A DNA stretch of 64,000 nt, taken from positions 682,001-746,000 of the forward strand of contig NZ_CP011533.1 of the NCBI RefSeq assembly GCF_001704275.1. The letters run 5' to 3'. Shown here piece after piece: positions 13,149 through 53,152 of this stretch; the stretch's first letter is position 1; each line of letters opens with the position of its first letter. Made by a program: the position numbers and the translations under genes. The notes under the pieces are model-generated. The model made no database searches. It was not told where the DNA came from and was given only the letters and a program-made list of their open reading frames with translations. This stretch comes from Streptomyces noursei ATCC 11455. Its GTDB lineage: Bacteria; Actinomycetota; Actinomycetes; Streptomycetales; Streptomycetaceae.

Positions 13149-13194
13149 TCGTCGCCGAGCCGGTGGCCGGCAGGGGCGGCGCCCAGCACCAGGA

Positions 13195-17142: not shown

Positions 17143-18609
17143 CTACTTCCCCGACAGCCACCCCTTCAGCCGGCTCCACCAGGGCGTGTGCGCCCTGGGC
17201 TCGTCGGCCGAGATCGACGCGAGCGAATCCCGTGCAGCCTCCCCGCTGCCGTCGGCGGTCCCCTGGGAGGCGGGTGCGTCGTCCACCTCGACCGCCGATG
17301 CACCGGTCGCCGTGGCGAGACTCTCCGGCCGGCTCGGGGTGAACTTCACCGGGAGCGAGGTCAGATGGCGGGCGATCCAATGGGACACCCACCTCAGCTC
17401 GCTCTCGGGAACGGCCAGCTCGATGTCGGGCAACCGCATCAGCAGGATGTCGATTCCCGTGTCGACGACGGCCCGACCGATCTCCTGGCCGGGGCACTCG
17501 TGCGGACCACCGGTGAAGGCGAGGTGGGAACGGTTGCCGTGCATGGGCACCGAGAGATCGGGGCGGATGACGGGATCGGCGTTACCGGCGGCCAGACCGA
17601 GGAGGAGCATGTCCCCGGCCTTGATGGACTGGCCGGCGAGTTCGGTGTCCCCGGTGGCCCACCGGGCCGGCGCGACCGAGGTCGGCGGTTCGTCCCACAG
17701 CATTTGTTCCAAGGCGTCGGGCAGGGTCATGCTGCCGCCCGTGAGCGAGGCCCGGAAGCGGGGATCGGTGAGCACCATGCGCAGGGTGTTCGCGATCAGA
17801 TTGGTGGTGTTCTCGTTCGCGGCGATGGCGACGAGTCGGAGATGCTGTGCGACCTCCTCGTCCGTGAGGTCGGCCGAGTGGCCGATCAACCACGAGGTGA
17901 TGTCGGGACCGGGCGCCGCGCGTTTGCGAGCCACCAGCTCGTCCAGCGTCGCCACGAGGTATTCGTTGCTCTTGAAGGCCGTCTCCGAGCCCCTGAGGAG
18001 GTCCCGGGTGGCCTCGACCAGTCGCGGACCGGTCTCGTCGGGCATGCCGAGGAGCTGCGACACCACGCGCAGCGGCAGTTGCTCCGCGAACTGGCTCACG
18101 AGATCGGCTTGTCCGCTGCCGATGAATTCGTCGATCAGTTGATTGGCGGATCGGGTGACGCAGCGGCGGATTCCGCGGCGGTCGAATCGCGTCATGCTGT
18201 CGGTGAGCGCGACACGAAGCCGCTCGTGCTCCGAGCCGTCCATGAAGAGGCAGACGGGCTGCCAGGCGAGCGCCGGCATCAGCGGTGAGTCCGCCGCGAC
18301 CTTGTTCTCCTTGAAACAGTGCCAGATACGGGAGTCGTGGCTGAAGCGGGTGGGCGTGCGCAGTACTTCGAGGTTCTCCCGATAACCGAGGACCAGCCAG
18401 GCCGGCAGGTCGCCGTCCACCAGAACGGGCGCCACGGCCCCGTGCTTGGCGCGCAGTCGCTCGTAGAAGCCCGTCGCGTCGTTCACCGCCTCGGGCCCGA
18501 AGAGCCGCGCCAGTCCGTCGGTGTCCCAGACTCGGGCGTGAGCGGGACATTCCGGGGGCGGTACGGATGCGGATGTCGTGCTGGGCTGGTTCGTGTCAGA
18601 GGCGGTCAA
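17143..18609 (-). CDS. Conservon cytochrome P450, CYP157-like, lacking ExxR
   Basis: A 488-residue P450. The heme-binding loop FTGGPHECPGQEIG is intact (Cys near 372). The I-helix reads AANENTTN. The K-helix site that normally holds ExxR instead reads EQMLW (E301-W305). This is the documented peculiarity of the CYP157 family, in which EQSLW replaces ExxR (Rupasinghe et al., on S. coelicolor CYP157C1, from memory). The C-terminal ~75 residues are a non-conserved Ala/Ser/Glu-rich tail ending WWSRLKGWLSGK. TTG start at 18609 overlaps the cvnD stop by three bases, so the two are translationally coupled. The physiological substrate is unknown; conservon P450s may sense or modify a signal rather than make a product. 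Confidence 0.9.
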   Translation of the reverse strand: MTASDTNQPSTTSASVPPPECPAHARVWDTDGLARLFGPEAVNDATGFYERLRAKHGAVAPVLVDGDLPAWLVLGYRENLEVLRTPTRFSHDSRIWHCFKENKVAADSPLMPALAWQPVCLFMDGSEHERLRVALTDSMTRFDRRGIRRCVTRSANQLIDEFIGSGQADLVSQFAEQLPLRVVSQLLGMPDETGPRLVEATRDLLRGSETAFKSNEYLVATLDELVARKRAAPGPDITSWLIGHSADLTDEEVAQHLRLVAIAANENTTNLIANTLRMVLTDPRFRASLTGGSMTLPDALEQMLWDEPPTSVAPARWATGDTELAGQSIKAGDMLLLGLAAGNADPVIRPDLSVPMHGNRSHLAFTGGPHECPGQEIGRAVVDTGIDILLMRLPDIELAVPESELRWVSHWIARHLTSLPVKFTPSRPESLATATGASAVEVDDAPASQGTADGSGEAARDSLASISADEPRAHTPWWSRLKGWLSGK

Positions 18610-19229
18610 CGGGGCTCCGAGGCTGTGGTGGTGAGGGCGTACAGATAGCGCATGAGGGTCAGCAGGGCATCGCGGCTGGAGGCGCGGTCACGGGCGTCGC
18701 AATCGACCATGGGAACGTCGTCGGGGAGATCCATGGCCGCGCGGAGCTCCGACATCGGGTAGGCAGGGGCGTCCGGGAAGGCGTTGATGGCGACGACGAA
18801 AGGCAGGCCGCGTTCCTCCAGCCGGCCGATCACGTCGAAGCTGTCGTCCAGGCGTCGGGTGTCGATCAGGACCACGGCTCCCAGCGCGCCCTCGAAGAGG
18901 CCGTTCCACAGGAACCAGAAGCGCTGCTGGCCCGGAGTGCCGAAGAGATACAGCACCAGTTCGGTACTGAGGCTGATCCGGCCGAAGTCCATCGCCACCG
19001 TGGTCTCGGTCTTGCGCTCGACTCCGACGATGTCGTCCACTCCGACACCGGCCTGCGTCATGGTCTCCTCGGTGGTCAGCGGGCGAATTTCGCTCACCGA
19101 GCCGACCAGAGTGGTCTTCCCCACTCCGAAGCCACCGACGATCACTACCTTGACCGCCGTGGAGACCGAGGCCGGTAGGGTGTCCTCGCTCCGGGGGCCG
19201 ACGACGGGCTCAGAGATTTTGCAGTCCAT
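18606..19229 (-). CDS. cvnD: Conservon GTP-binding protein CvnD
   Basis: A 207-residue Ras-like small GTPase. The P-loop is GGFGVGKTTL near residue 32. The G3 region is degenerate (FGTPGQQRFWFLW), and NKxD is replaced by NAFPD. These traits match CvnD proteins of Streptomyces conservons, which form a membrane heterocomplex with CvnA-C resembling a G-protein-coupled system (Komatsu et al. on Cvn9, from memory). It overlaps cvnC by 20 bases and the P450 start by three, so the four downstream genes form one operon. Confidence 0.94.
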   Translation of the reverse strand: MDCKISEPVVGPRSEDTLPASVSTAVKVVIVGGFGVGKTTLVGSVSEIRPLTTEETMTQAGVGVDDIVGVERKTETTVAMDFGRISLSTELVLYLFGTPGQQRFWFLWNGLFEGALGAVVLIDTRRLDDSFDVIGRLEERGLPFVVAINAFPDAPAYPMSELRAAMDLPDDVPMVDCDARDRASSRDALLTLMRYLYALTTTASEPR

Positions 19230-19581
19230 GCATCACCGCCTCCAATAGTTCGACATCGGGCAACGAGGCCGTCGGGATCGGCGCCCGGGCTTCGGCGTGG
19301 CCGCTCTCCAGCAGATCCGCGAGTAATACCGTGACCACACTGACCGGCAGATGGACGTATGCGGAGATCTCGGCGATCGACAGCGGGTAGTCGCATATCC
19401 GGAGGATGGCGGCCTGCTCCGGCTGCATGCTCGCAGTGGGCCGATGCCGGGTCACGATCAGCGTGACCATGTCCAGAGGCGCTGCTTCGGATGGCGCGCT
19501 CCGGCCGGACGTTAGGACATAGAGCCGCTCGGGACCGCCTTCTTCCCAATTCCGGTGCTTTTCCGGTTTCGAGTCGCTCAC
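19210..19581 (-). CDS. cvnC: Conservon DUF742 protein CvnC
   Basis: A 123-residue DUF742 protein with a winged-helix-like core (LSIAEISAYVHLPVSVVTVL). GTG start at 19581 overlaps the cvnB stop in a GTGA arrangement. It sits between cvnB and cvnD in the invariable conservon order. CvnC is thought to bridge the CvnA-CvnB complex and the GTPase; no enzymatic function is known. Confidence 0.93.
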   Translation of the reverse strand: MSDSKPEKHRNWEEGGPERLYVLTSGRSAPSEAAPLDMVTLIVTRHRPTASMQPEQAAILRICDYPLSIAEISAYVHLPVSVVTVLLADLLESGHAEARAPIPTASLPDVELLEAVMHGLQNL

Positions 19582-19988
19582 GGGACCTGCCGGTCGGCCC
19601 GCGGCGGGCTTGTGAGATGTTGACCGATCCGGGCGACCAGGTCCCGCATCCCCTGTCCCATGAGGCCGGCGTCCACGTCGTCATCGGCCAGTACCGCCAG
19701 GTACGCCCCGGCACCGGCCGCCATCAGATAGAAGAAGCCGCCGTTGACCTCGATGACGACCAGCTTCATCTGCCCGTCGCCGTGCGGGAATTCGGCGGCG
19801 ATGGCCGCCGACAGGCTCTGCAGGCCGGCACAGGCAGCGGCGAGGCGATCCGCGGTGTCCTCGTCCGTACCGTACTGAGCCATACACAAACCGTCCGAGG
19901 ACAGCACCACGACGTCACGGGTGTGCGGAACACTGGACGCCAGGCCCTCGAGCATCCAGTTCATATTGAGTCGCTGCTGTGTCACCAC
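19578..19988 (-). CDS. cvnB: Conservon roadblock/LC7 protein CvnB
   Basis: A 136-residue roadblock/LC7 domain protein (LNMNWMLEGLASSVPHTRDVVVLSSDG, then LVVIEVNGGFFYLMAAG). Roadblock proteins act as GAP-like or scaffold partners of Ras-like GTPases, here CvnD. GTG start at 19988 (a second GTG follows at 19985). It lies 26 bases downstream of cvnA and overlaps cvnC by four bases. Confidence 0.93.
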   Translation of the reverse strand: MVTQQRLNMNWMLEGLASSVPHTRDVVVLSSDGLCMAQYGTDEDTADRLAAACAGLQSLSAAIAAEFPHGDGQMKLVVIEVNGGFFYLMAAGAGAYLAVLADDDVDAGLMGQGMRDLVARIGQHLTSPPRADRQVP

Positions 19989-20014
19989 TTACTTACTCAT
20001 CCTTACCTAATGAC

Positions 20015-21514
20015 TCAGTTACGCTCGGACTCTTTATCGCTCAGGCCGTCGGGACGAGGTGCGGGGGACTCAGCTCGGGGCTCGCCGGAGATGCCCTCCT
20101 GGAAGGCGGCCAGCCACAACCCGGCCTGCGGGGGTGGAGCGGCTGACACCGAGGTGTCGGATTCCGTGGAGGTCGAGGCCACGGGCTTCTGCCGCAGGGG
20201 CGGAATCACGGCACGGGTACGGCGCCTGCGCTGCGGCAGCCCGTTGGCGTTGCGCGGAGAGACGGCGGGCACGGGCTCCTCGGCGAGCCCCTCCACGCGG
20301 CGCATCGGACCACCGGGGCGCCGGGGCGGCGGCAGCACGGCGGCCTTGGCCATGGCCCCGCCGGGCACCGGAGTCGCGGTGATCATCTCCGGCGGAACGA
20401 TCAGGACCACGCGCACCCCGCCGTACGCGGAACTCCGGAAGGAGACCTTGAAGTTGTTGGTGCGGGCCAGCCGGCCGACCACGGCCAGGCCGAGTCGCGG
20501 TGACTCGCCCAGGTCGTCCAGGTCGAGTCCGGTGGGCGAGTCCTGCGCCAGGGCCCGCTCGGCGCGCAGTCGGGCCTCATCGGTCAGGCCGATCCCGGCG
20601 TCCTCCATCTCGATGGCCACACCGGTCTGGATCTCGGTCGCGGTCAGATGGACCCGGGTCTGGGGCGGTGAATAACGGGTGGCGTTGTCCAGCAGTTCGG
20701 ACAGGGCGTGGATCAGCGGTTCGACACCGCGTCCGAGAATGCCGACCTCGGCCACGGAGTGCAGATCGACGCGCTGGTAGTCGATGATCCGGGACATCGC
20801 GCCGCGGAGCACGTTGAACAGCGGGATGGTCTGCTGCCACTGACGGCCGGGCCGGGCCCCACCGAGTACGGCGATGCTGTCCGCGAGCCGACCGACCAGC
20901 GCGGTGCGGTGGTCGAGGCGCAGCAAGTCACCGAAGACTTCGGGGTCCTGGCCGTGCTTGTCCTCCATCTCCCGCAGTTCCTGGGCCTGTTGGTGGACGA
21001 TGGCCTGGACGCGCCGAGCGATGTTGACGAAGGCCCGCTGGGCGGAGTCGCGCAGGTCTTCCTCGGCCTCGACGGCCTCCAGGACGTAGCGCAGCACTGC
21101 CCGGTAGGCGGCCTCGAACTCGGGGCTGACGCGGGAGACATGGACGACGTTGCGGAGCACGTCCTCGGCACGGGAGCCCTGCTGGAGCTGGGCCATGGCC
21201 GTGGGCAGGGTCTCCTTTGCCATCCGCACGGTTTCGGCTTCCTGCTGGGCGAGGTGGCCGAGCAGGACGGACTCTCGCTTGGCGTACTGCTTGCGCAGTT
21301 CGTCGAGCACACGTCCTCGGCGTGCCGCCTCCCCGCCTGCGACAGCCACAACCAGCGTCGCCACGACGCCGATCACGACGACCGGGGCACGAGCCATTGA
21401 CGGCGTCAGCGCCACGGCCACGGCCGTGCACACGGCCAGCAGTACGGACGGCAACAGCCATATCGGGGCGGAAGAGGGCCCCGAACTTCCGGGGGGTGAA
21501 CCAGCACGAACCAT
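20015..21514 (-). CDS. cvnA: Conservon sensor-kinase-like membrane protein CvnA
   Basis: A 499-residue protein from ATG 21514, chosen for GAGG six bases upstream. Two membrane segments lie near residues 18-58 (WLLPSVLLAVCTAVAVAL and VVVIGVVATLVVAVAGG) with almost no extracellular loop. A long helical linker leads to a HATPase domain: N-box ELLDNATRYSPP, G-box EDAGIGL and GLAVVGRLA. The tail is Pro/Arg-rich and low in complexity. No phospho-accepting His box is obvious, as in other conservon CvnA proteins. It heads the cvnABCD-P450 operon. Confidence 0.93.
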   Translation of the reverse strand: MVRAGSPPGSSGPSSAPIWLLPSVLLAVCTAVAVALTPSMARAPVVVIGVVATLVVAVAGGEAARRGRVLDELRKQYAKRESVLLGHLAQQEAETVRMAKETLPTAMAQLQQGSRAEDVLRNVVHVSRVSPEFEAAYRAVLRYVLEAVEAEEDLRDSAQRAFVNIARRVQAIVHQQAQELREMEDKHGQDPEVFGDLLRLDHRTALVGRLADSIAVLGGARPGRQWQQTIPLFNVLRGAMSRIIDYQRVDLHSVAEVGILGRGVEPLIHALSELLDNATRYSPPQTRVHLTATEIQTGVAIEMEDAGIGLTDEARLRAERALAQDSPTGLDLDDLGESPRLGLAVVGRLARTNNFKVSFRSSAYGGVRVVLIVPPEMITATPVPGGAMAKAAVLPPPRRPGGPMRRVEGLAEEPVPAVSPRNANGLPQRRRRTRAVIPPLRQKPVASTSTESDTSVSAAPPPQAGLWLAAFQEGISGEPRAESPAPRPDGLSDKESERN

Positions 21515-28047: not shown

Positions 28048-28872
28048 TCACTCCGCGATGCCCCGGGTGAGCAGGACGGCGGTGACGAACCTGCGGTAGA
28101 GCCGGATCGGGTCCTCGTCCGTCGTGCGGACGGTCACGGCGTCGGCGCGTTCGATGCCGTTGATCCACGTCGCCATCTCGGCGAGATCGGGGTTGCGGAA
28201 GCGCACGCTGAGCGTGGCCGGCAGGGCGATACGCGGCGGTGTGGCCCGCGGCAGGTCACGCACCGCTGCTTCCGCGGCCTGGTGGATCAGTTCGCGAGCG
28301 GTGGTGGGGTGCAGGCTGTCCGCGGCGAAGCGGCTCACCGACGACTTGACCACGGCGCTGCGGATGCCCGGGCAGAACGGCTCGATCTCGGCGGCCGTCG
28401 TGTCGTCCCCGGTGATCAGCACGACCGGCACGCCATGCCCCAGCGCCACCAGCGCATTGATCCCGCTCTCCCCCGCGGTGACGCCGTTGAGCAGCACCTC
28501 GCTGATGGCCTGGGGATTGTAGGTGTGCGAGAGGGCCGCCGGCGCGCCCGCCATGGAGCCGTGGTACGAGACGAAGAAGACGCCGTCGAACGAGGCGTCC
28601 AGGCCCTGCATCATGTACAGGGGCTTGTGCCGTCCGGACAGGTAACGCGCCCGGCCCGCAAGGGCGTCGGGGCGCAGGTTCGCCATCTTCGAGTGCGAGT
28701 CGTTGACCAGGAACTCGGTCGCGCCGCCCGCCATCGCCCCCTCGATGGCGGCGTTGACCTCCTCTTGCAGCAGGCCCCGGTAGTAGGCGTACTCGGGCTC
28801 CGTGGGCCGGCACTGCGACCAGTCGACGACCCCCGCGGTGCCCTCCATGTCGGACGAGACGAAGACCTTCAC
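28048..28872 (-). CDS. M55 family metallopeptidase, DppA-like D-aminopeptidase
   Basis: A 274-residue protein from GTG 28872 with GGAG six bases upstream. VFVSSDMEGTAGVV supplies the D-x-E zinc ligands, and NDSHSKM and YHGSMAG supply His ligands. Such peptidases form decameric rings and release D-amino acids, often in peptidoglycan or dipeptide use. It is leftward and lies upstream of the lipoprotein gene with 230 bases between, so probably a separate unit. Confidence 0.9.
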   Translation of the reverse strand: MKVFVSSDMEGTAGVVDWSQCRPTEPEYAYYRGLLQEEVNAAIEGAMAGGATEFLVNDSHSKMANLRPDALAGRARYLSGRHKPLYMMQGLDASFDGVFFVSYHGSMAGAPAALSHTYNPQAISEVLLNGVTAGESGINALVALGHGVPVVLITGDDTTAAEIEPFCPGIRSAVVKSSVSRFAADSLHPTTARELIHQAAEAAVRDLPRATPPRIALPATLSVRFRNPDLAEMATWINGIERADAVTVRTTDEDPIRLYRRFVTAVLLTRGIAE

Positions 28873-29398: not shown

Positions 29399-32203
29399 TC
29401 AGCCGAAGCTCTTGCCGTGCAGCTGGATGCGGGAGGTGATGCCGAGCTTGGGGAAGAGTTTGTACAGGTGGTAACCGACGGTGCGGGGGCTGAGGAAGAG
29501 TCGGGCGGCGATGTCCCGGTTGCTCATGCCCTGGGCGGCCAGCCGGGCTATCTCAAGCTCCCGTGAAGTGAGCCGACCGGCTTCGGCAGACGGCTCGGGG
29601 GCCGGCTGGTCCGGGGCACGGTCGCCGGCGGCGCGCAGCTCCTGACGGGCCAACTCCACCCAGGGACGGGCGCCGAGCATGCGCAGATACGTCTCGGCCT
29701 GGTGCAGGTGGTCCCGGGCCGACTTGATGCGGCGGTTGCGGCGCAGCCACTCGCCGTAGAGAAGGTGCGTCCGGCCGGTGTCGAACGTCGAGGGATGGGG
29801 GGCCTCCAGGGCTTCGGTGAACAGGTCGTCGGCGTCCTCGCTCGATGCGAGCAGCGCCCGGCACCGGAGCCACATGGCGTGCAGGTGCGGGAGGTGGGCG
29901 GGCGCGGCCCGTTCCTCGAAGCGGTGCAGCGCCGCCCGGGCCTGCGCCGGCTCCCCGGCCCGCACCGCCGCCTCGACCAGGTCCGGCAGCACCAGCCAGC
30001 CCACCATGAAGTGCTCGGCGGGTGCGCCCGGGGCGGCCACCTCGCCCAGCAGCCGGGCGGCTCGGTCCGGTTGGCCCTCGGCGAGGGCCTGGAGTCCCAG
30101 CGCCCATCGGGCCAGTGCGATGGCGGAGGTGATGCGGCGCGGGACCGACAGCGTCAGGGACTCCTCGGCCAGGGCGCGGCAGCGGTCACCGTCCCCGCGG
30201 GCCGCGGCGGCCCAGGCCAGCATCGCCCGCAGATGGCTGGCGGCGCCGAGTTGGCCGGTGTCGTCGGCGAGGGTGAGTGCCTCGCCGGCGTGGGACACCG
30301 CCGCGGGCCACTGGCCGGTGACCAGTTGCAGCGCCACCAGCGGGGCGAGCGACATCGGCAGCGCACCGACGGCGCCGACCTTGCGCAGCTCGTCGACCGT
30401 GCGCTGGTGGGCGTCCAGCATCTCCTCGGTGGTCCCGGTCAGGTAGGGGAGGAACACCGGCGGCCAGATCCAGGGCCTGGGGTGTACGGGGGACAGCCAG
30501 GACATCCGGGTGGCCGGAACGTCCGGGGGGCACGGGTGGGCCGTTGCGCTGCTGCCGGGGGCGAGGCTGCCCAGGTAGTGGAAGTGGCGGGAGAACCGGT
30601 GGGCGGTGGCGGCCCGGTCGTCGTTCGCGGGGGCCGGCCCGTCCGCGTCGCCGGCCGTGGCACCGTCACCGGAATCGGCCGCCCCGGGGTGCAGGCGGCC
30701 GATCAGGTCGCCGATCTCCGTCAGCCGCGCCGGGGCACCCGCCACCCAGGCCGAGCGGGCCGCCATCACCAGCAGCTCCCCCGCCAACTCCGGGTCCGAC
30801 TCCCCCACCAGTCGGGCGCCGTCCAACAACATCCGGCAGGCCACGGCCGGATCGCTGCTGGCGTGGGTGATGGCGCCGCGCATCCGGGCGGCGCGCGCCC
30901 GCAGCGCCGGGTCGTCCGTCAGCGTCTCGGCGCGGTCCAGCAGCGCCTCGGCCTCGGATGTCCGTGCCGCCGTCCACGCGCACTCGGCCGCGTCCACCAA
31001 CCACCGGGCCCGGCGGCGACGGTCGGAGGCCAGCGCGGCGGCACGGCACAGCATCTGGGTCGCGGTGGCCACCCCGCCGGTGCGCCGGGTGCGTTCGGCG
31101 AGTGCGGCCAGCAGCTCGGCGACGGTGTCGTCGGTACCTACCGCGGCCGCCGCCGCGTGCCAGACGTACCGGTCGTCCTGACGCCCGACGGCGTCGGCCA
31201 GCGCCAGGTGGGCGGCGCGCCGGTCGTTGAGCGGGGCGCCCTGGTAGAGCGCGGAGCGGACCAGGGGGTGCCGGAACCGCACCTGCTGCTGGTCCAGGTG
31301 GACCAGCCCCTGGGAGGCGGCGGCGCTCAGCACCTCCATGGCCGCCTCGGTGTCGCCGGCGGCGCCGAGGACGGTGCCGAGGTCGCCCGCGCTCTCCGCC
31401 GCGGCGAGCAGCAGCACCCGGTGGTGGTCGGCCGGCAGGCTCAGCGCGCGGTGCCGGAAGATCTGGTGCAACCGCTCGCTGAGCGGCAGGTGTTCGGGCA
31501 GCGGGGCGCTGCCGTCGACATGCTCGGGGCGCAGCGTGGTGGGCAGTTCCATGAGGGCCAGCGGGTTGCCGTCGGCCTCGCGCAGCAGTCGTTCGCGGAC
31601 GGTGGGGGCGGCCTGCGGCAGGTGCCGGGCCAGCAGGTCCGACGCCTCCCGCTGGGTCAGCGGTGCCACCCGCAGGGTGCGGAGGCCGGGTGCGGGGAAG
31701 GGGCGGGAGCCGTCCCGGACCGCGAAGACCAGGGCCGCGCTCTCCCGCTCCATCCGCCGGGCGACGAAGGTCAACGCGTCCGCGGTCGCCGCGTCCAGCC
31801 AGTGGGCGTCGTCCACGACGAGCAGCAGCGGCACGTCCTCGGAGGCGTCGGAGAGCAGGGTCAACACGGCCAGGGCCACCAGGAACGGATCGGCGAAGGC
31901 GGTGGCCAATCCGAGCGCGCCGTGCAGCGCGGCGGCTTGCGGCTCGGGCAGCCGTGTCACGTACGGCATCAGGGGTAACAGCAGTTGGTGCAGTGCGGCG
32001 AACGGCAGCTCCACCTCACCTTCCACGCCCACCGCGCGGAGCACCCGCACGTCCGGCTCGGCCCGTTGCACCACGTCCGCCAGGAGCGCGCTCTTGCCGA
32101 TCCCCGCGGGTCCGCGCAGCACCAGCGTGCCGCTGTTCCCCTTGCGCGCGTCGTCGAGGAGCCTGCCCAGTTCGTCCCGCTCCAGCTCTCTCCCGACCAG
32201 CAT
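29399..32203 (-). CDS. LAL-family LuxR-type transcriptional activator with AAA ATPase
   Basis: A 934-residue regulator from ATG 32203 with AAGGA nine bases upstream. Residues ~1-250 are an ATPase module: Walker A GPAGIGKSALL near residue 31 and Walker B LLLVVDDAHWLD near 120. A long TPR-like helical middle follows. The last ~65 residues are a LuxR helix-turn-helix (LTSRELEIARLAAQGMSN, then IAARLFLSPRTVGYHLYKLF). LAL proteins commonly control secondary-metabolite clusters. It is divergent from the RiPP-like locus starting at 32453, which makes it the candidate pathway activator. Confidence 0.94.
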   Translation of the reverse strand: MLVGRELERDELGRLLDDARKGNSGTLVLRGPAGIGKSALLADVVQRAEPDVRVLRAVGVEGEVELPFAALHQLLLPLMPYVTRLPEPQAAALHGALGLATAFADPFLVALAVLTLLSDASEDVPLLLVVDDAHWLDAATADALTFVARRMERESAALVFAVRDGSRPFPAPGLRTLRVAPLTQREASDLLARHLPQAAPTVRERLLREADGNPLALMELPTTLRPEHVDGSAPLPEHLPLSERLHQIFRHRALSLPADHHRVLLLAAAESAGDLGTVLGAAGDTEAAMEVLSAAASQGLVHLDQQQVRFRHPLVRSALYQGAPLNDRRAAHLALADAVGRQDDRYVWHAAAAAVGTDDTVAELLAALAERTRRTGGVATATQMLCRAAALASDRRRRARWLVDAAECAWTAARTSEAEALLDRAETLTDDPALRARAARMRGAITHASSDPAVACRMLLDGARLVGESDPELAGELLVMAARSAWVAGAPARLTEIGDLIGRLHPGAADSGDGATAGDADGPAPANDDRAATAHRFSRHFHYLGSLAPGSSATAHPCPPDVPATRMSWLSPVHPRPWIWPPVFLPYLTGTTEEMLDAHQRTVDELRKVGAVGALPMSLAPLVALQLVTGQWPAAVSHAGEALTLADDTGQLGAASHLRAMLAWAAAARGDGDRCRALAEESLTLSVPRRITSAIALARWALGLQALAEGQPDRAARLLGEVAAPGAPAEHFMVGWLVLPDLVEAAVRAGEPAQARAALHRFEERAAPAHLPHLHAMWLRCRALLASSEDADDLFTEALEAPHPSTFDTGRTHLLYGEWLRRNRRIKSARDHLHQAETYLRMLGARPWVELARQELRAAGDRAPDQPAPEPSAEAGRLTSRELEIARLAAQGMSNRDIAARLFLSPRTVGYHLYKLFPKLGITSRIQLHGKSFG

Positions 32204-32452: not shown

Positions 32453-33582
32453 ATGCAGTTCGGAGTGTCCTTCCTCCCTGACTGCCGCGAAGAGTGGAAG
32501 TCGGCGGCGGAGTACTTCTCCGACGCGTTGGCGCTCTGCACACTCGCGGAGTCGGCCGGATTCGTCTCGGTCAAGATGACCGAGCACTGCCCGACCGACT
32601 ACGGCGGCTACTGCCCGAGCCCCCTGTCCTTCCTCAGCGCGGTCGCGGCCCGCACCACACGGATGCGGCTGATCACCGACGCTCTCCTGCCCGCCTTCCA
32701 CCACCCCGTGCGACGTGCCGCCGAGATCGCCACGGTGGACGCGATCAGCGGCGGCCGGCTGGAGGTGGGTTTCGCCCGAGCCTACCTGCCCCAGGAGTTC
32801 GAGACGTTCGGGTCGTCCCTGGACGAGTCCACCGCGCGCTATCAGGACACCATCCGGGCGGTGCTGCGTCTGTGGACCGAGCGGCGGATCGACGAGAAGA
32901 CGCCATTTTTCTCCCACCGACAGGCCACCGGACGCCCGTCCCCCGTGCAGCGTCCGCACCCGCCGGTGGGGGGCGGCGCCACCAGTCGGGCGCCGGACGG
33001 TTTCCCGTGGCTGGGCGGCAACGGCTGCGGACTGCCGACGCCCCCTCGCTCGAACCGCCGGCGCGCATGCGGCCGTTGGTGGACCGCTACCGCGACGCCG
33101 CGACCGCCGCGGGGCACACGCCGCGGATCGCCATCACCCTGCCGCTGGCCGTCGCCGACACCGACACGGAGGCGGAGCACCTGGCCGACCGGCACATCGC
33201 GCGCCATCTGGAGGTGTGGCGGGAGGCCGTGGAGTCCTGGAACGAGCACGAGTCCGACGAGTACCCCGACTTCGGCCGAAAACTGGCGGGAATCGGACCC
33301 GAGCACATCCGGGACGGCAACGCAGCGATCGTCGGCTCCCCCGCCACCGTCGCCACGCGCATCCTCCGTCTGGTGCGCGACTTCGGCGGAGTGGACCAGA
33401 TCCTGTGGCAGGTCGACATCGGCGCGATGCCGCCGGCGCAGGCGCACCGCTCGATCGAGCTGTTCCGCGACGCGGTGGTGCCCCTGCGGGGAGAAGGCCG
33501 CGGCCTCCCGCGCCGGGGTCCCCTTCCAGGCCGCCGCCGGCTGACCGAACGGTGCCGCATCCCCACAGGCTCCCGGTCCTGA
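32453..33582 (+). pseudogene. Luciferase-like (LLM class) flavin-dependent oxidoreductase, frameshifted
   Basis: From ATG 32453 the first ~190 residues read as an LLM-class flavin oxidoreductase (MQFGVSFLPDC, VSVKMTEHCPTDYGGY, ISGGRLEVGFARAYLP). Family homology then moves to the +2 frame: after GLPTP near 33036 the other frame continues with MRPLVDRYRDAATAAGHTP and RHLEVWREAVESWNEHES to a stop at 33582. A one-base indel near 33030-33045 explains this. The gene is either broken or the base call is wrong. It has a good position for an operon with the precursor peptide 55 bases downstream. The enzyme would oxidise a bound substrate using reduced flavin. Confidence 0.75.
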
Positions 33583-33637
33583 CGGGACCGGAGGAGTCAG
33601 AGCCCACCAGAAAGTCCTTTCAAGGAGGCGAAGACCG

Positions 33638-33817
33638 ATGTCCCCCGCTGCTGTCCTCAGCCTGGACCTCGAAGGGGTCGAGGCCGCGGACTTCGAGGTC
33701 GTCGAGGCCAACGAGTACTCCTCGGCCTTGATGCCCGCCATCGGACCCCTGCCCGGCGGCACCGACGGCCGACTCCGGGTGCGCAGGGACGACAACGGGC
33801 CCGGCAACTACCGCTGA
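33638..33817 (+). CDS. RiPP-precursor-like peptide, 59 residues
   Basis: ATG 33638 has a textbook AAGGAGG nine bases upstream. The peptide has an acidic leader-like first half (LDLEGVEAADFEVVEAN, residues ~9-25) and a Gly/Pro/Arg/Asn-rich second half after SSALMPAIGP, ending DDNGPGNYR. There is no Cys and only one Thr and two nearby Ser in the second half. Position between a flavin oxidoreductase and a leader-binding F-type protein is the main argument. The leader pattern resembles TOMM and thiopeptide precursors (D/E-rich, with E/D-F-E-V). Cleavage site and modified residues are unknown. Confidence 0.7.
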   Translation: MSPAAVLSLDLEGVEAADFEVVEANEYSSALMPAIGPLPGGTDGRLRVRRDDNGPGNYR

Positions 33818-33977
33818 TACCGATGCCCCGGTCGCCGCACCCGACAGGCGACCGAGGTGGTGGGGCGCCCGCGCCGAGCGGCGGGGCACGGTCACCACCG
33901 ACGGGCACGGACGAATCGACCCACTTTCCCGAAACGACGTCGAGGCCATGGAAGAAAAACGTCGAACACGACGAGCC

Positions 33978-35981
33978 ATGACTGTCCAGACCACCAACGC
34001 GGTGCGCCCGCGGCTGCGCGGCGACGTGTACTTCACCGCGATGCCCGACGGCGCCTTCGTCCGCAGCACCCGGGGCAGCGTGTTCCTCAAGGGCGCCTCG
34101 GTCCACCGGCTGCTGACCGCGCTCGCCCCGGCCCTGACCGGCGCCGCGACGCTGACGGAGCTGCTGGCCGCCGTGCCCACGCCCCAGCGCCCCTCGGTAC
34201 GGAAGCTGGTCGGCACGCTGCTGGAGCGCGGATTCGTCCGCGACACCGGCTCCGACCTGCCGCACTCCCTCGATGACGACGCGGCGGAACGGTACGCCGG
34301 GCCGGTCCAGTTCATCGACTCCTTCACCGACTCGGCCGCGCGCCGCTTCCAGGACTTCCGCGCCGCCCGCCTGGTCTGCGTCTGTGGCCCCGATGCGGCC
34401 CGCGGCTTCCTGAGCGCGCTGACCGACTGCGGCGCCACCCGCCTGACCCTCGTCCTCCCCGACCCCGACAGCATGCTGACGGTCCATCGATTCGCCGCCA
34501 CGCTGCCGGAGGTGCCGGCCGAGCTGGCGTTCGTGCCGGCGCCCAGCACCACCGACGGGGCGGACGCGACGGACTGGGAGACGCTGCTGCGCACGGCCGA
34601 CGCCGTGCTGCACCTCGCCGACCGACCCGGGGCCGGCAGCCGTGAGGCCGTGGCCCGGCTCTGCGCCCGACTCGGCAGGCCGCTGGTCCAGGGCCTGGCG
34701 ACCGCGGACGCGGTGTGGATCTGGCCGGTCCGCACGCCCGCCGCCCCCGACGGCGACGGGGACGGGGACGCGCCGTGGCGGCGACTGCTGGCCACCCGCA
34801 CGGCGGCCGAGCGCCGGACACTGCGCGCCGGCCCCTGCTCCGACGGGCTCCACCGCGGCCCGGTGGCGGAGTTGGCCGCGATCCAGCTCACGTTCCGGGC
34901 GTACTGCCATCTGACCGGGGTGACCACGCCGGAACTGGCCGCGATGGCCCGGCTGGACACCACGACGCTGGAGGTCGACCACCACCCCGTCCTCGGTCCG
35001 GCACCCGCCTCTTCCGACGCCGGACCGCGGAAGCCCGGAGCCGAGCAGGACCCCGCCCGCCGGGTCCGCCTCCTCCGTGCCGCCGATCCCGTACCGGACC
35101 CGCTGTTCCTGGAGCGACTCGCGGTGGCCTGCGACCGCCACGTGGGCCCGATCCCGGACGTGCGGGAGCGCGACCACCCCCAGTCGCCACTGTTCGTCAC
35201 CGAGGCCAAGGTCGCCGACCCGGGCCTGCGCACCGAGCCGCGGGCCGTCCTGGGCGCGGCGCACACCGCCCACGATGCCCGTGCGGACGCGCTGCGGCGC
35301 GCCGCCGCCACCGCCCTGGAGCTGGCCCGGCAGGCGGCCCCGCGGCCCGCGCCGGAACCGGGCTGGGACCTCGCCGCCGAGCGGGCACGCCCGGTACCGG
35401 CCCCCGGGAACGGCCGCTACGCGCACGGGGTGGCCGCCGAGGCCGACCTGGACCGTTCGGCGCTGGCCTGCACACTGGCCGCGCTGGCCCGGCTCGTGCC
35501 CGTGCAGGCCGCCGGGGACGCTGCCCCCGTGCCGCCGGCCGAACTGACCGCCGCGGACCGCCAGTGTGTGGAGCTGCTGACGACCGCCGATGCGCACTGG
35601 TCGGTCCACCGGGTCGCCTCGCCCGCCGCGGCACTGCCGGCGTTCGCGTTCCTGCTCGACGGTGCGACGGTCGCCGTCCAGGTCCACCCCGACGCCGCGA
35701 CCGCGCTGTCCGCCGGTCTGCTCGACACCTTGCTCGCCTGGCAATTGGCCCGCCACCGGCGGGAGTCCGGCGACCCGGACCCCACCGGGGGCACGACCCC
35801 CGAAGCCGTACCGTCGGTGCAGCCCCGATTGGCCGCGACCGACGGAGCCGACCAGCTGGCCACGACGCTGGAGCAGCTGCGCGCCGCCGGCCTGTGCGCG
35901 GTGCTCCAGGTGCTGGACGACGACCCGGCCCTGGCCGAACTGGTCCGCTTCGGCGTCCGGGTGGTGATCGACGACGCCTGA
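33978..35981 (+). CDS. Ocin-ThiF-like / TOMM F-type leader-peptide-binding protein
   Basis: About 667 residues. ATG 33978 is preferred because homologues begin at this point; ATG 33948 is in frame and would add ten basic residues. Residues ~8-90 look like a RiPP recognition element (RPRLRGDVYFTAMPDGAF, then a winged-helix segment to LLERGFVRD). Residues ~115-200 form a Rossmann-like E1 fold (RLVCVCGPDAARG) lacking a clean GxGxxG. F-type proteins hold the leader peptide for a YcaO cyclodehydratase. No YcaO, dehydrogenase or protease gene is nearby. It follows the precursor by 160 bases. Confidence 0.78.
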   Translation: MTVQTTNAVRPRLRGDVYFTAMPDGAFVRSTRGSVFLKGASVHRLLTALAPALTGAATLTELLAAVPTPQRPSVRKLVGTLLERGFVRDTGSDLPHSLDDDAAERYAGPVQFIDSFTDSAARRFQDFRAARLVCVCGPDAARGFLSALTDCGATRLTLVLPDPDSMLTVHRFAATLPEVPAELAFVPAPSTTDGADATDWETLLRTADAVLHLADRPGAGSREAVARLCARLGRPLVQGLATADAVWIWPVRTPAAPDGDGDGDAPWRRLLATRTAAERRTLRAGPCSDGLHRGPVAELAAIQLTFRAYCHLTGVTTPELAAMARLDTTTLEVDHHPVLGPAPASSDAGPRKPGAEQDPARRVRLLRAADPVPDPLFLERLAVACDRHVGPIPDVRERDHPQSPLFVTEAKVADPGLRTEPRAVLGAAHTAHDARADALRRAAATALELARQAAPRPAPEPGWDLAAERARPVPAPGNGRYAHGVAAEADLDRSALACTLAALARLVPVQAAGDAAPVPPAELTAADRQCVELLTTADAHWSVHRVASPAAALPAFAFLLDGATVAVQVHPDAATALSAGLLDTLLAWQLARHRRESGDPDPTGGTTPEAVPSVQPRLAATDGADQLATTLEQLRAAGLCAVLQVLDDDPALAELVRFGVRVVIDDA

Positions 35982-36068: not shown

Positions 36069-36962
36069 TCACCCCCCGTGCTCGGCGCACAGGCACGCGA
36101 CGCCGGTGTCGATCCACTCCTGGCCGACCCACTCGGGGTGCCGCTCGATCAACGCCGCGCGCACCTCCTCGACCATCGTCTCCCGGCCCACCGCCGAGTC
36201 CCGGCGGGCCCAGGTCTCGTCGCGCAGTTCCCGCAGGTAGTCGAGTACACCCTCGACCCTCTGCGTTCCGCCGACGTCGCCGTGGCCCGGAACCACGATC
36301 CGCGGTGCGGCCGCCACCAGCCGGGCCAGGACCTCGATCCAGCGCAGTCCGCTCACGTCGGTGTCGTGCGGCGGGAACCACGGGAAGACCGCGAACCGCC
36401 CGGTCTCGACGAGGTCACCGGTGAACAGCACCTCGGCGTCGGGCACCGTGATCACCTGGTCGCCCCTGCTGTGCGCGCGGCCGACGGCCCGTAGACGCAC
36501 CACCCGCCCGCCCAGGTCGAGGTCGTGGGACTCCTCGTAGACGACGTCCGGCGTGGGCACCCGTACGCCTTCCAGACGCCGGGCGACGGTCGGGCCGAGC
36601 CCCCGGAACATCGCGAGGTATCCGTCCCCCTTGTCGGCCAGGTCCTCGGCCTGCGCCCGGTTCACCAGGAACGTCGCCTCGCCGGCGAAGACCTGCGCCC
36701 CGAAGGCGTGCTCGGGGTGGAAGTGCGTGGTGGTCAGGTACAGCTTGCGCCCCTTGGCGTAGTCGCGGGCGAAGGCCAGCACGCTCTCGGCGTTCTCCGG
36801 CCCCAGGCCGGTGTCGACCACCAGGACCGCGTGCTTCCCGCCGATGACGCCGATGTTCGGGACCAACTCCGTGTGCCGGTTGGGCACGACCACCACGTCA
36901 GACGCGATCTCCTGGGCACCGGAGGTCCGCACCACGGGGTCGGGCAACTGATGGTCGGTCAT
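36069..36962 (-). CDS. Metallo-beta-lactamase-fold hydrolase
   Basis: A 297-residue MBL-fold protein from ATG 36962, with AAGGAG eight bases upstream. The zinc-binding core is TTHFHPEHAFGA, with further ligands in AHSRGDQ and VLFTGDLVE and the distal IVVPGHGDVGG. No signal peptide, so cytoplasmic. The substrate is not evident; relatives include thioester, lactone and glyoxalase-like hydrolases. It is divergent from a LysR gene with a T-N11-A type dyad between them, so probably controlled by that regulator. Confidence 0.9.
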   Translation of the reverse strand: MTDHQLPDPVVRTSGAQEIASDVVVVPNRHTELVPNIGVIGGKHAVLVVDTGLGPENAESVLAFARDYAKGRKLYLTTTHFHPEHAFGAQVFAGEATFLVNRAQAEDLADKGDGYLAMFRGLGPTVARRLEGVRVPTPDVVYEESHDLDLGGRVVRLRAVGRAHSRGDQVITVPDAEVLFTGDLVETGRFAVFPWFPPHDTDVSGLRWIEVLARLVAAAPRIVVPGHGDVGGTQRVEGVLDYLRELRDETWARRDSAVGRETMVEEVRAALIERHPEWVGQEWIDTGVACLCAEHGG

Positions 36963-38091: not shown

Positions 38092-38802
38092 TCAGCGGAC
38101 GACCTTGACGCCGAAGTGCGTGCCGAAACCCAGCGCGAAGCCGATGGCGCCGTGCATGTGGGCGTACATCTCCATGCCGCGGGCGGCGACGATGTCGCCC
38201 AGGTCGAGGATGTCCGTCCAGCCGTAGGACGTCAGCAGGTCGGTGACGGTCTGCTTGGCGTCGGCGTCCTGGCCGGCGACGAACATGGTGTGATCGCCGC
38301 CGCCGATGGACCTGGGGTCGACGACCGTGGCCTGCTCCTGGGTCACGAACGCCTTGACGACCTTGGTGTCGGGCAGGGCCCGCTGGATCTGCTCGCCGAG
38401 GCTGTCGCTGTCGCACACACCGAGGATCGGGTTGACGCCCCACGGGGTGGGCCAGGGCCGCTCGATGTCGGGGTTGTAGAGGTAGGGCACGGCGTAGTCG
38501 ACGAGGGTCTTGCCCGCCAGGTCGCCCGCGACGGCGGTCAGGGCCCGGACGGCGTTGTGCCCGTCGATGCCGTTGATCACCAGCTCGGCCCCGGCCGCGG
38601 CGTCGCCGAAGGTGGCCAACGGGATGCCCGGGCGGTCGGCCAGCCACTGACCGTAGGGCGGGTTCTGCATCATGTCGGGCCCGGTGCGGGCGAGGGTGGC
38701 CTCGGGGTCGCGGGTGCCGACGATGACGTCATGACCGAGTTCGGCGAGCTTGGCGATGTGGCAGCGGGCGCCGCCGCCGGTGCCGAGAACTGCGATCTTC
38801 AT
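38092..38802 (-). CDS. F420-reductase-like NAD(P)-binding protein, paralogue 1
   Basis: A 236-residue Rossmann protein from ATG 38802 with AAGGAG upstream. MKIAVLGTGGGARCHIAKLAE is the dinucleotide-binding start; VGTRDP is the NADP-type second strand; ELVINGIDGHNA follows. It fits the F420_oxidored family (NADPH-dependent F420 reductase or related dehydrogenase). A close paralogue lies at 55812-56528 and shares long identical stretches such as DSLGEQIQRALP and GGGDHTMFVAG. Role unknown. Confidence 0.87.
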   Translation of the reverse strand: MKIAVLGTGGGARCHIAKLAELGHDVIVGTRDPEATLARTGPDMMQNPPYGQWLADRPGIPLATFGDAAAGAELVINGIDGHNAVRALTAVAGDLAGKTLVDYAVPYLYNPDIERPWPTPWGVNPILGVCDSDSLGEQIQRALPDTKVVKAFVTQEQATVVDPRSIGGGDHTMFVAGQDADAKQTVTDLLTSYGWTDILDLGDIVAARGMEMYAHMHGAIGFALGFGTHFGVKVVR

Positions 38803-49612: not shown

Positions 49613-52600
49613 ATGGACATCGCACTTCCGACCGACGACACCGGCAGCCCTGCGCGCTGCTGTGTGTTTCTCTCCGACAACAGGACCGGCGGCCCCGTAT
49701 CCGGGGCGTTGGCCTTCCTCGAAGCCCAACTGACCGTCACCGACGGGGGTTCGGGCAGCGACGTGGGGATCGCTGCCGGTACCGGGAATCCGGTCCGTAT
49801 CCCGTTGGGACTGCTCGGCAGTGACCACGCCGGGTACCTCTCGTGGGACCTGGCGCCACTGTGGCGGCAGGCCCTGCAACTGGCCGAGCGGCCCGACGGC
49901 TCCACCGCCGAGGTCCGGCTCGCCCATGTGTGGCTGTACCTGGGCGGTCCGCTGCAGAGCGCGGTGGACGTCCTGGCCGAGGCCGACGAACGGGCGCAGG
50001 CACTGGTCCTGCGGCTCGGCGTGGACCGGGGCGGAGTCTTCACCGGCTCCGCCACCGGCTTCCCCGCCATGCAGTCACCCTCTCTCCTGGACTGGTACCT
50101 CTCGCCGGGCTCCTTCGCCTACGTACCGGCCGAACTCATCGGTCAGGGCGGCTGCGAGACCCTGCTGCCCTCCAATGTGGCCACCCAGCAGTACCAGGTG
50201 CACCAGATCGTGACCGTCCCGCATCTCCTGGCCAACCTGGACTACGGCGCGCAGTACGCGTCCGCGGCCGGGGACCGCGTCGGCACCGACTCGACCGGTG
50301 TTCCGGTGCCGATCGCCCTGGTGATCAGCTACGACGTCACCTGGATTCCGGTGGGGCACGGGCTCGGCCAGGTGACCTACAGCCTTCCGCTGGCGCCGGG
50401 CGAACAGGTGCAGCTCGCGGTGGTGGACTGGTCGCGCACCTCGACGGACAGTCGGCTGGAGGACATCGCGCTCACCGATGACCTGGAGCACGCGCTCACC
50501 CGCGACCGGACGGTCGACGAGGTGGTCAAGGGCGCCGTCAACGAGTGGCAGCGCGGTGGGTCGGTGATGGCCGGCGTGGCCGGGGCGGCGTCGATGGGCA
50601 TGTTCGGCGGGTCCGCCGCGATCGGCGGCGGCTACGCCACCACGACCGGCGACCGCAGCGTGTCGGCGGACACCGTGCAGAACCTGCACGACCAGATCCG
50701 CCAGCACTCCACCTCCGTGCGCGACATGCGCAGCACGGTCGTCGTGCAGTCCCGCCAGGCGGAGCACTCCACCGCCCAGACCAGGACCGTGCGCAACCAC
50801 AATCACGCGCATGCGATGACGCTGCTCTATTACGAGGTGCTGCGGCACTTCCGGGTGCTCGTCGAGCGCGGCACGGTCCGTCCGGCCGTCCTGCTGCCCG
50901 CCGCGTCCCCGAACCTCGACGACGAACTGGTCATCGTCCGCTACCGCCGCCTCCTTCAGGCCGGGCTGCTCGACCCGCAGCTGGCCGGCGGATTCGACGC
51001 GGTGGAGAAGTACGCCGCCTGGCAGGAGCTGCAGCCCGAGGTGCCGGTTCCGCCCGACCCGGGCAGCGTCGAGTTCATCCTCTTCCAGTTCCGCTTCACC
51101 ATCGGTGATCTGTCCAATTTCCAGGACCGGGTGCCCACGACGGTCGCCCTGACCCAGCGGGCGCCGGACGGCGGTCAGAGGGTCACGTACCTGGTCCGTC
51201 CGCAGCACAGTGACTGGGACCCCGACCCGACCCACCTGCAGAACCCCGGCGACTTCCAGCACACCCACGCCATGGTCGATCTCGCCGGGGTGCCCCGCTC
51301 CGACGAGCGCGTCAACTGGCGTGATCTGCGGACGATTTCGGTGACCCTCACGCCGCCCTACACCGAGGGCCGCAACGACGACGTCGCCGTGGAGCACCTG
51401 GTCGTCACGGCCGTGGACACCGCGGGCAACACCCACCTCCTGGTGGACGAGCCCAGCGGCAAACTGTTCCAGAAGCCGTCCACGACCTGGGCCCTGGCGG
51501 TCCGCCAGGCACCGGAGCCGGCGCCGGCGCCGACCCCGTTCCAACGGCTCGGCGACGAGGAGAACCTGCTCCGGATCCGGCTGCGCCGGCATCTGGTGCA
51601 GAACCGCGAGCACTACTACCGGCTGATCCGGCTCGGCGAGGACCCCAACGCCCGGTGGACGGAGCTGGCGGGCAGCAGTCTCACCGTCGGCGGCACCACA
51701 CGCCCGCTGTTCCAGGCCGTCGAGAACCGCGCCGTGGAGGTACTCGGGGACGCCACGGCCTTCCCGCTCGATCCCGCCCTGTTCGACGGCTCGGGCGAGG
51801 GACGGGTACGCCTTCCGAAGGTGGATCCCGCCCGCAGTGAACAACTGATCAGCCTGCCCACCCGTGGGATCTTCGCCGAGGCCAAGCTCGGCCACTGCAA
51901 CTCCGCCGAGGTCATCGACAACACCCGGTTCTGGGACTGGCAGAAGTCGCCGGATCCGGACAGCGCCCCACAGATCGCCCCGGTGTCCACGGCGAGCCGC
52001 GAGGTGGTCGTCTCCACCACGCCCTCGGGGCTGCCCGCCTCGGCGGTGACCATCGTCCAGCCGCCGCAGGCCCCGGACCCGGTGGGGATGGCGGCGGCTC
52101 TGCAACTCCTCGGCAAGGGCGACATCTTCCGCGACGAGTCGATGCAGAAGGAGGTCGCCGCGCTGCTGACCTCGCTCGCGAGCAACGCGGCCGGCCTGGC
52201 GGGCAAGAACCCCGGCACGCCCGGTACTTCCGGCACGCCCGGCACCGGCTCGACGCCAGGCGGCGGGGCGGGTACGGGCGCTCCCGGCACCGGAACGGGT
52301 ACCGGCCCCGGCGCTCCGTCCGGCGGCGCGGGTACCCCGGGCGGCGGTACGCCCGGCGGTGGCACCGGAACCGGAGGCACCACGTCCCCGGGCACCGGCG
52401 GAACGCCCCCCGGTACGGGCGGCACCCCGGGTGCCCCGGGTCCCGGTACGCAACCCGGCACGGGTGACGGCGGCCCCGGCGCTCCGAAGCCGCCCGCTCC
52501 CGCGCCGCACCCCACGCCCCGGCCACCCGTGCCGATCGGCTCCGGCAACCGGTCGTTCGTCTTCAGCTTCGCCCCGGTCAGCTTCGGCCCCAGCGAGGCG

Positions 52601-53152
52601 GACTGGGAGCGCGGCAGGTTCGCCGTCGCGATCTTCCAGGACGGCAAGCCGGTCCTCGGCCAGGACAATGTGGTGCCGGCGGCGCCCAGCATCATCCTCA
52701 ACGGCAAGGTCGCCCTGGACAAACCGCTGGACATCGTGGTCGACGGCTCCTCCACCCACTGGGTGGCCTACCCCTCGATCTACTCGTCCGCCATGGCGGG
52801 CAACCCGGCCACCGTCGGGACGGCGCCCGGCATCCTGATCACCACGCATCTCGTCGGCAAGCTGACGCTCGCCAGTCTCGATCCCGGACAGCGCAGCTAC
52901 GTCTTCTCGATCCAACGGGACGTCAAGTTCACCTCGGTGACGCTGAGCGAGCAGCAGATCCGCCAGCAGGGACTGGAGCAGGTGGTGTCGGGGCAGATCA
53001 ACGCCAGCTTCGACAAGGTGATCTCGTTCGGTGCCGGGCTCAGCTCGTCGGAGACGTCGTCCACCAGCACAGGGACGACCACCAACAAGACCGACACCGT
53101 GCCGGTCACCTACTTCAGCGGACTGATGTCCATCAATCCGGTCAAGAGCTGA
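49613..53152 (+). CDS. 1179-residue protein of unknown function with Gly/Thr/Pro-rich linker
   Basis: ATG 49613 follows GGGGGGAACC. There is no signal peptide. Residues ~1-315 are an alpha/beta part with TQQYQVHQIVTVPHLLANLD and SYDVTWIPVGHGLGQ. A Gly-rich segment (~315-350, GVAGAASMGMFGGSAAIGGG) and a helical segment around VRNHNHAHAMTLLYYEVLRHF (~395-415) follow. After a mixed region to ~860 comes a ~115-residue linker of GTPG/GTGTG type (nucleotides ~52204-52550). The last ~200 residues form a separate beta-rich domain ending in SSSETSSTSTGTTTNKTD. I do not recognise any family. A perfect hairpin follows. Confidence 0.88.
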   Translation: MDIALPTDDTGSPARCCVFLSDNRTGGPVSGALAFLEAQLTVTDGGSGSDVGIAAGTGNPVRIPLGLLGSDHAGYLSWDLAPLWRQALQLAERPDGSTAEVRLAHVWLYLGGPLQSAVDVLAEADERAQALVLRLGVDRGGVFTGSATGFPAMQSPSLLDWYLSPGSFAYVPAELIGQGGCETLLPSNVATQQYQVHQIVTVPHLLANLDYGAQYASAAGDRVGTDSTGVPVPIALVISYDVTWIPVGHGLGQVTYSLPLAPGEQVQLAVVDWSRTSTDSRLEDIALTDDLEHALTRDRTVDEVVKGAVNEWQRGGSVMAGVAGAASMGMFGGSAAIGGGYATTTGDRSVSADTVQNLHDQIRQHSTSVRDMRSTVVVQSRQAEHSTAQTRTVRNHNHAHAMTLLYYEVLRHFRVLVERGTVRPAVLLPAASPNLDDELVIVRYRRLLQAGLLDPQLAGGFDAVEKYAAWQELQPEVPVPPDPGSVEFILFQFRFTIGDLSNFQDRVPTTVALTQRAPDGGQRVTYLVRPQHSDWDPDPTHLQNPGDFQHTHAMVDLAGVPRSDERVNWRDLRTISVTLTPPYTEGRNDDVAVEHLVVTAVDTAGNTHLLVDEPSGKLFQKPSTTWALAVRQAPEPAPAPTPFQRLGDEENLLRIRLRRHLVQNREHYYRLIRLGEDPNARWTELAGSSLTVGGTTRPLFQAVENRAVEVLGDATAFPLDPALFDGSGEGRVRLPKVDPARSEQLISLPTRGIFAEAKLGHCNSAEVIDNTRFWDWQKSPDPDSAPQIAPVSTASREVVVSTTPSGLPASAVTIVQPPQAPDPVGMAAALQLLGKGDIFRDESMQKEVAALLTSLASNAAGLAGKNPGTPGTSGTPGTGSTPGGGAGTGAPGTGTGTGPGAPSGGAGTPGGGTPGGGTGTGGTTSPGTGGTPPGTGGTPGAPGPGTQPGTGDGGPGAPKPPAPAPHPTPRPPVPIGSGNRSFVFSFAPVSFGPSEADWERGRFAVAIFQDGKPVLGQDNVVPAAPSIILNGKVALDKPLDIVVDGSSTHWVAYPSIYSSAMAGNPATVGTAPGILITTHLVGKLTLASLDPGQRSYVFSIQRDVKFTSVTLSEQQIRQQGLEQVVSGQINASFDKVISFGAGLSSSETSSTSTGTTTNKTDTVPVTYFSGLMSINPVKS

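Follow-up and report, generated by a model that had tools for sequence, protein, structure and literature searches.

How does the leader-binding scaffold of a thiopeptide pathway come to stand at a locus that holds no YcaO cyclodehydratase? The question is raised by a small group of genes in Streptomyces noursei ATCC 11455, which lies in a 64-kb window (the whole stretch of DNA analysed, G000:C1:682001-746000) of a 9.82-Mb genome assembled as a single contig. From left to right, the locus consists of a divergent regulator gene of the LAL type (large ATP-binding regulators of the LuxR family), a luciferase-like monooxygenase (LLM) oxidoreductase gene spread over two reading frames, an open reading frame (ORF) of 59 amino acids, a gene for an F protein of the kind found in thiazole/oxazole-modified microcin (TOMM) clusters, and a convergent gene for a metallo-beta-lactamase (MBL)-fold protein. 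A first-pass annotation of the letters alone had seen here a locus for a ribosomally synthesized and post-translationally modified peptide (RiPP) without YcaO, and had left three options: a YcaO acting in trans, decay, or a different modification scheme. Decay is the best fit, a YcaO in trans is disfavoured, and another scheme may have operated in the ancestor or in a sister species. With moderate confidence, we consider this to be a thiopeptide-derived RiPP locus, lacking both a YcaO and a heterocyclisable core, that is now degenerating in S. noursei; descent from a YcaO-containing cluster appears plausible. For comparison we used the same region of S. noursei A-2-1 (locus L003, ~96% nucleotide identity to the window), two further Streptomyces genomes (G345 and G563; the window genome is G000), additional loci (L numbers) and relatives of the locus proteins (P0002-P0005, P0010 and P0011).

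A thiopeptide-type leader joined to an atypical core

The 59-residue ORF (33638-33817, plus strand) is preceded by a ribosome-binding site, AAGGAGG, at 33622-33628 (plus), which bears out the leader-like peptide with ribosome site of the first-pass annotation, and its leader is of the thiopeptide type. The putative motif for the RiPP recognition element (RRE), LDLEGVEAADFE (33662-33697, plus), aligns without gaps both to LDLADLSVDELD of cyclothiazomycin-type precursors and to the 13-mer NLNDLPMDVFEMA of PbtA. In one study, the Leu and Phe of this 13-mer make up Lx4F, the motif by which thiopeptide RREs recognise leaders, as in PbtA/TbtA (PMC12710340); in the window Val replaces the Leu, giving Vx4F. 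We scanned 2118 short ORFs (35-120 amino acids) from 23 loci for the pattern [LIVM][DNE][LIVM]xx[LIVM]xxxx[FLIMV][DE] and obtained 16 matches, all 16 beside an F gene, a count that speaks for specificity and is no blind test, the pattern having been drafted after examples were known. Fourteen of the matching ORFs have 2 to 9 Cys past the motif and belong to loci with F and YcaO, the other two being those of S. noursei. The pattern overlooks some precursors, since it is unmatched in L010, L050, L054, L055 and L057, all of them distant F loci, and likewise in L056, L060 and L064.

The presumed core, GPLPGGTDGRLRVRRDDNGPGNYR (33743-33814, plus; its border with the leader is putative), contains no Cys, no Ser and a single Thr, and so departs from the Cys/Ser/Thr-rich core of thiopeptides. 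Its codon-position GC (0.79, 0.62, 0.92) fits the annotated frame, as does that of the leader. A core in the +2 frame after the leader, by eye richer in Ser, Thr and Cys, was rejected because codon-position GC favours the annotated frame and both strains keep that frame free of indels. The whole 59-residue ORF is kept without indels in A-2-1; its 4 non-synonymous and 2 synonymous differences (ratio 0.70) do not suffice for a verdict on selection. A search of the protein database for relatives of the precursor returned the query alone, and none was found on plasmids.

An F protein with a PbtF-like recognition element

The F gene is real (ORF 33948-35981, plus; 677 amino acids, or 667 from an alternative start at 33978), and translation probably begins at 33948, because the resulting MEEK... 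lines up with the starts of P0004 and P0005. The RRE that the first-pass annotation suspected occupies amino acids 9-91 counted from the 33978 start (34002-34250, plus) and matches the crystallised RRE of PbtF (8t19_A) both in phmmer (E 2.1e-12) and in Foldseek (TM 0.88 by target length, rmsd 1.4, 41% identity). Behind this thiopeptide-type N-terminal RRE comes an E1/ThiF-like domain (about amino acids 96-344; 34263-35009, plus), both being hallmarks of TOMM F proteins, followed by a YcaO-like domain (about amino acids 371-666; 35088-35975, plus), and the predicted model has a LynD-like fold composed of these three parts. The ocin-ThiF-like assignment also stands: TIGR03693 matches the N-terminal half at E 3.5e-25, though with 88.3 bits it is far below the curated cut-off of 561.9, and six other F proteins, some of them beside a YcaO, likewise stay below it at 68-156 bits. 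Active YcaO domains (PF02624) carry ExxER motifs in two helices, with a role in Mg-ATP binding. All three real YcaO domains compared have two or more such motifs, whereas none of 17 aligned F proteins has one in the stretch corresponding to 422-512 of the window F (which is partly gapped in L011 and L010), and the YcaO-like domain of F is probably non-catalytic.

The RRE of the window protein is 90-93% identical to those of P0002-P0004, as against 71-79% for the other two domains. In four YcaO-bearing pairs the RRE again changes least (72-81% vs 58-70% for the other domains, a similar or smaller margin), so the figure points to the usual constraint on leader binding and in no way sets the S. 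noursei clade apart.

Set beside known systems, the window F resembles the TOMM F proteins (TIGR03693/IPR022291: PbtF, TbtF, HcaF, TclI) in its PbtF-matching RRE and E1/ThiF-like middle, and the PbtF/TbtF systems in having a partner leader close to the Lx4F kind; unlike the TOMM F systems of thiopeptides and heterocycloanthracin, the S. noursei locus has no YcaO partner. Cyclothiazomycin-type clusters (S. huiliensis L006, S. pathocidini L004, S. ruber L005 and others) encode an F ~32-33% identical to ours and a leader, LDLxDLSVxELD, that aligns gaplessly to LDLEGVEAADFE, but they differ in possessing a SagB-like gene, a fused YcaO and the core SNCTS(T/R)GTPASCCSCCCC, which we take to be that of cyclothiazomycin. 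In L004, L005, L007, L047 and L048 the order is F, SagB-like, precursor, fused YcaO, LanB and two LanB-C genes, the last three again unlike the S. noursei locus; L004 was typed by Pfam (Lant_dehydr_N, Lant_dehydr_C twice, nitroreductase, YcaO) and the other loci were named by likeness. One report describes S. huiliensis as having a cluster with 100% similarity to that of cyclothiazomycin C (PMC8600237), and a 2015 survey met a TOMM F protein outside heterocycloanthracin or thiopeptide clusters in two cases only (PMC4603692). The fused cyclodehydratases LynD and TruD differ from the window F, which shares 11-13% identity with them and lacks ExxER in its YcaO-like domain. Micrococcin TclI is likewise described as an RRE-bearing ocin-ThiF-like scaffold, one that presents the precursor to enzymes, yet it is much shorter, its C-terminal domain comprising residues 85-242 (PMC10634744), and, unlike the S. 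noursei locus, it has a YcaO (TclJ) and a dehydrogenase (TclN) as partners.

No YcaO at the locus

Three YcaO domains used as tblastn queries (E 1e-3) found nothing inside the 64-kb window, in agreement with the absence that the first-pass annotation had noted nearer the locus. That annotation had also proposed a genome-wide search, and PF02624 proved to occur in two places only, at 4.41-4.42 Mb. Both the window genome and A-2-1 have two YcaOs, each pair far from the locus; G345 has no PF02624 match across its whole genome, and G563 was checked at the locus. Within the S. noursei clade, none of four loci has an adjacent YcaO (span searched: 64 kb for the window and about 20-50 kb for the other three; positive control, L004), whereas all 20 of the more distant F loci that were opened do. 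These 20 represent at most 19 distinct contigs, L004 and L053 lying on the same one. F homologues were sought in proteins, in genome contigs (ten loci; the F of L008 was taken from this search) and in Streptomyces genomes, where 94 of 295 gave an F-profile match at E 1e-3, many of them weak or confined to the N-terminal part; with A-2-1 (no YcaO) and L056 (no F match), the survey opened 22 loci. Homologous loci with an adjacent YcaO and a loss here were named in advance as the pattern that would tell against the first-pass reading, and this is largely what we find. In the F tree the S. noursei clade has 100/100 support and a stem of 1.58 changes per site, and draws from the genus (392 genomes each, overlapping) yielded a close F only in G000, G345 and G563. 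L009, from Thermogemmatispora (phylum Chloroflexota), has two tandem near-identical Cys-rich thiopeptide-type precursors (8962-9537) beside F and YcaO.

Nor does the window hold a LanB-type dehydratase or a pyridine synthase, as judged by tblastn with S. pathocidini LanB and both Lant_dehydr_C proteins (E 0.01). We therefore set the locus apart from thiopeptide clusters, because its core is poor in Cys, Ser and Thr and the YcaO and LanB genes of such clusters are missing. We found no printed report of YcaO-free thiopeptides or F loci, most subscription journals being beyond the search; an apparent paper on an LLM with a thiopeptide (PMC6273380) was set aside, as it describes a cluster of the non-ribosomal peptide synthetase type.

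The YcaOs of the window genome belong to a separate thiopeptide-type cluster at about G000:C1:4411701-4428400 (L056, L066), 3.7 Mb from the locus. It contains the two YcaOs, two TIGR03882-type proteins (one that barely reaches the cut-off and one that falls short of it and has a SagB-like fusion partner), a Lant_dehydr_N protein of 860 amino acids, a Lant_dehydr_C protein and three tandem precursors, whose leaders (LDLNALEISDLIED) resemble the window leader. The precursor cores are rich in Ser, Thr and Cys, two ending in ASTTTTGCTTSSCSSSSS and one in ASCVGCAGSCSSTSSSS; the two distant YcaOs have their own substrates.

A broken oxidoreductase gene

What the first-pass annotation took for an intact flavin oxidoreductase (32453-33544) is frameshifted. 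PF00296 is matched over positions 1-174 in the frame of 32453 (N-terminal part, 32453-33040, plus) and over 192-309 in that of 32494 (C-terminal part, 33034-33582, plus), which places the frameshift near 33030-33045, and the one uninterrupted PF00296 reading frame of a functional LLM is not found. A-2-1 shows no indel against the window from 32453 to 33487, so the break is common to both strains and is no error of a single assembly; P0010, on a 6279-base contig, reads into the same out-of-frame tail and has an extra deletion besides. Between the window and A-2-1, dN/dS is 0.97 over 32453-33031 and 2.04 over 33034-33480. LLM divergence is neutral between the S. noursei strains, and the gene is a pseudogene in this species. 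An intact relative of 367 amino acids (P0011), 84% identical over the N-terminal residues 1-194, occurs in Streptomyces sp. NPDC090442.

Sister genomes at further stages of decay

In G345, the order is regulator (84% identical), broken pieces of LLM, a truncated F, a protein of 327 amino acids and a SagB-like protein (TIGR03605, 80.4 bits, cut-off 78.4). Its F is truncated in the same manner as P0005, and the distance from the middle of LLM to F is about 180 bases, vs about 790 in the window. G563 retains the regulator, fragments only of LLM and F, and the 327-residue protein, and lacks a SagB match. No precursor was found in either genome; a candidate in G345 (L060 7667-7720, an 18-residue match, 67%, E 8e-4) was deemed a chance hit because it lies outside the locus, on the strand opposite another gene. 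The genes to the right of the G345 locus (L061) are those to the left of the locus in the window, at 3255-13796 (3.3-13.8 kb): the block of regulator, LLM, precursor and F, or its flanks, has been rearranged.

The 327-residue protein lies beside the decayed loci at L060 13134-14117 and L064 8757-9710, the two copies being 81% identical. It is unmatched in Pfam and NCBIfam, and among 294 Streptomyces genomes drawn it occurred in one, G345 itself, the G563 copy being known from its neighbourhood; its profile recovers G345 and finds no relative in the window genome. We rejected the name LanB-C as a guess: both databases are silent, hhalign gives probabilities of 14% and 6% over short matches at both ends, and three real Lant_dehydr_C proteins taken for comparison reach E 1e-28 to 1e-40.

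Neighbouring genes

The regulator (29399-32203, minus; AAA_16 8.6e-21, GerE 7.3e-16 in Pfam) also adjoins the locus in G345 and G563, where it is 84% identical, and between the window and A-2-1 its dN/dS is 0.12. The convergent MBL-fold gene that the first-pass annotation had seen is confirmed at 36069-36962 (dN/dS 0.38); we read it and the LysR gene after it as ordinary neighbours. A further gene at 28051-28872 has a dN/dS of 0.26. No sigma-70-like promoter was found, which weighs little in Streptomyces. Elsewhere in the window, two similar genes on the minus strand, 17 kb apart (38092-38802 and 55812-56528; 236 and 238 amino acids, both beginning MKIAVLGTGGG...), encode products that by eye look like NADPH/F420-type reductases; a P450-like gene stands beside what by eye is a conservon-like set (GTPase, small proteins, sensor-like protein; 17143-21310, minus), and an ORF of 1162 amino acids (49664-53152, plus) has a strong coding signal.

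Origin and fate of the locus

We postulate that an ancestral operon beside the LAL regulator would have combined an LLM, a precursor with a thiopeptide-type leader and a three-domain F protein (RRE, E1-like and YcaO-like, the last probably non-catalytic). Ordinarily, the leader is held by the RRE while the remainder of F hands the core to a YcaO cyclodehydratase. The S. noursei clade has no YcaO at the locus, and the window core lacks the Cys and Ser on which such an enzyme would mainly act; in S. noursei the LLM was later inactivated, leaving the precursor, the F scaffold and the regulator. Judged by kind, leader and F scaffold would function like part of a thiopeptide pathway, and the RRE of F presumably binds the leader, but the S. 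noursei locus probably gives no finished product.

Several observations weigh against such degeneration from a YcaO-containing ancestor. F is still constrained (dN/dS 0.34 vs A-2-1, and 0.36 over 313 codons vs G345) and is best conserved in its RRE, which would not be expected of a fully dead locus. Both strains retain an uninterrupted precursor frame, though six differences cannot decide selection. In NPDC090442, both LLM (P0011) and F (P0002) are apparently intact. No relative caught in the middle of losing its YcaO was found, and so the ancestor of the clade may never have had one at the locus. The conservation of the RRE is in keeping with a scaffold in which leader binding persisted for a time in the absence of a YcaO.

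These same observations could be accommodated by a working YcaO-free RiPP pathway, in which F binds the leader and passes the Cys/Ser-free core to the LLM (in the ancestor perhaps also to the 327-residue and SagB-like proteins of G345), intact in NPDC090442-like species and recently broken in S. noursei. Besides the intact P0011 and P0002, the 90-93% identity of the RRE between species, the low dN/dS of F and the precursor frame kept in two strains, the 327-residue and SagB-like genes beside F in a G345 genome devoid of PF02624 matches would agree with it. However, the search for a precursor in NPDC090442-like species gave the query itself as sole candidate, the adjacency of P0011 and P0002 is deduced from the equal 108954-base NPDC090442 contigs from which each comes, the 327-residue protein is as rare and unmatched as described, and the LLM is dead in S. 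noursei and F truncated in P0005 and G345; we regard such a pathway as a serious contender, albeit an unlikely one. In its boldest form, the S. noursei clade would have taken over the thiopeptide leader-F scaffold and replaced the YcaO chemistry, the protein of RRE, E1 and pseudo-YcaO domains presenting a Cys/Ser-free core to the LLM, working where LLM and F are intact and dying in S. noursei, which we put forward as speculation that is a little less likely still.

Re-use of F and leader without any enzymatic modification, for instance as a hypothetical peptide-binding partner for the neighbouring LAL regulator, would suit the good preservation of regulator and RRE and the survival of F and peptide beyond the LLM in S. 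noursei. It seems improbable to us, as the regulator is kept in G345 and G563 despite a truncated or fragmentary F and a precursor not found there. Slightly more improbable is an F that works in trans with one of the two YcaOs of the 4.41-4.43 Mb cluster. Two YcaOs are present in each of G000 and A-2-1, the leaders of that cluster (LDLNALEISDLIED) are similar to the window leader, and heterocycloanthracin precursors often lie apart from their cyclodehydratase (PMC4603692). Such an arrangement is disfavoured because the window core has one Thr and neither Cys nor Ser, the distant YcaOs are grouped with their own TIGR03882-type proteins, Lant_dehydr_N/Lant_dehydr_C genes and three precursors, and PF02624 is unmatched in the genome of G345, a sister whose F is truncated. 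Single-base indels do occur in assemblies, yet it is scarcely credible that a sequencing error produced the frameshift and chance the small ORF, given that A-2-1 and P0010 have the same frame layout and that, among the 2118 short ORFs, the leader motif occurs only beside F genes.

Read as a degenerating locus of thiopeptide descent, the window and A-2-1, G345 and G563 offer graded stages in the decay of one RiPP locus, and the window protein shows that a YcaO fold, apparently non-catalytic, can form part of an F protein itself. F proteins have been presented as aids to F-dependent YcaO cyclodehydratases; with its F scaffold and leader motif kept under constraint in the absence of a YcaO, this clade would be a test case for the scaffold's own role.

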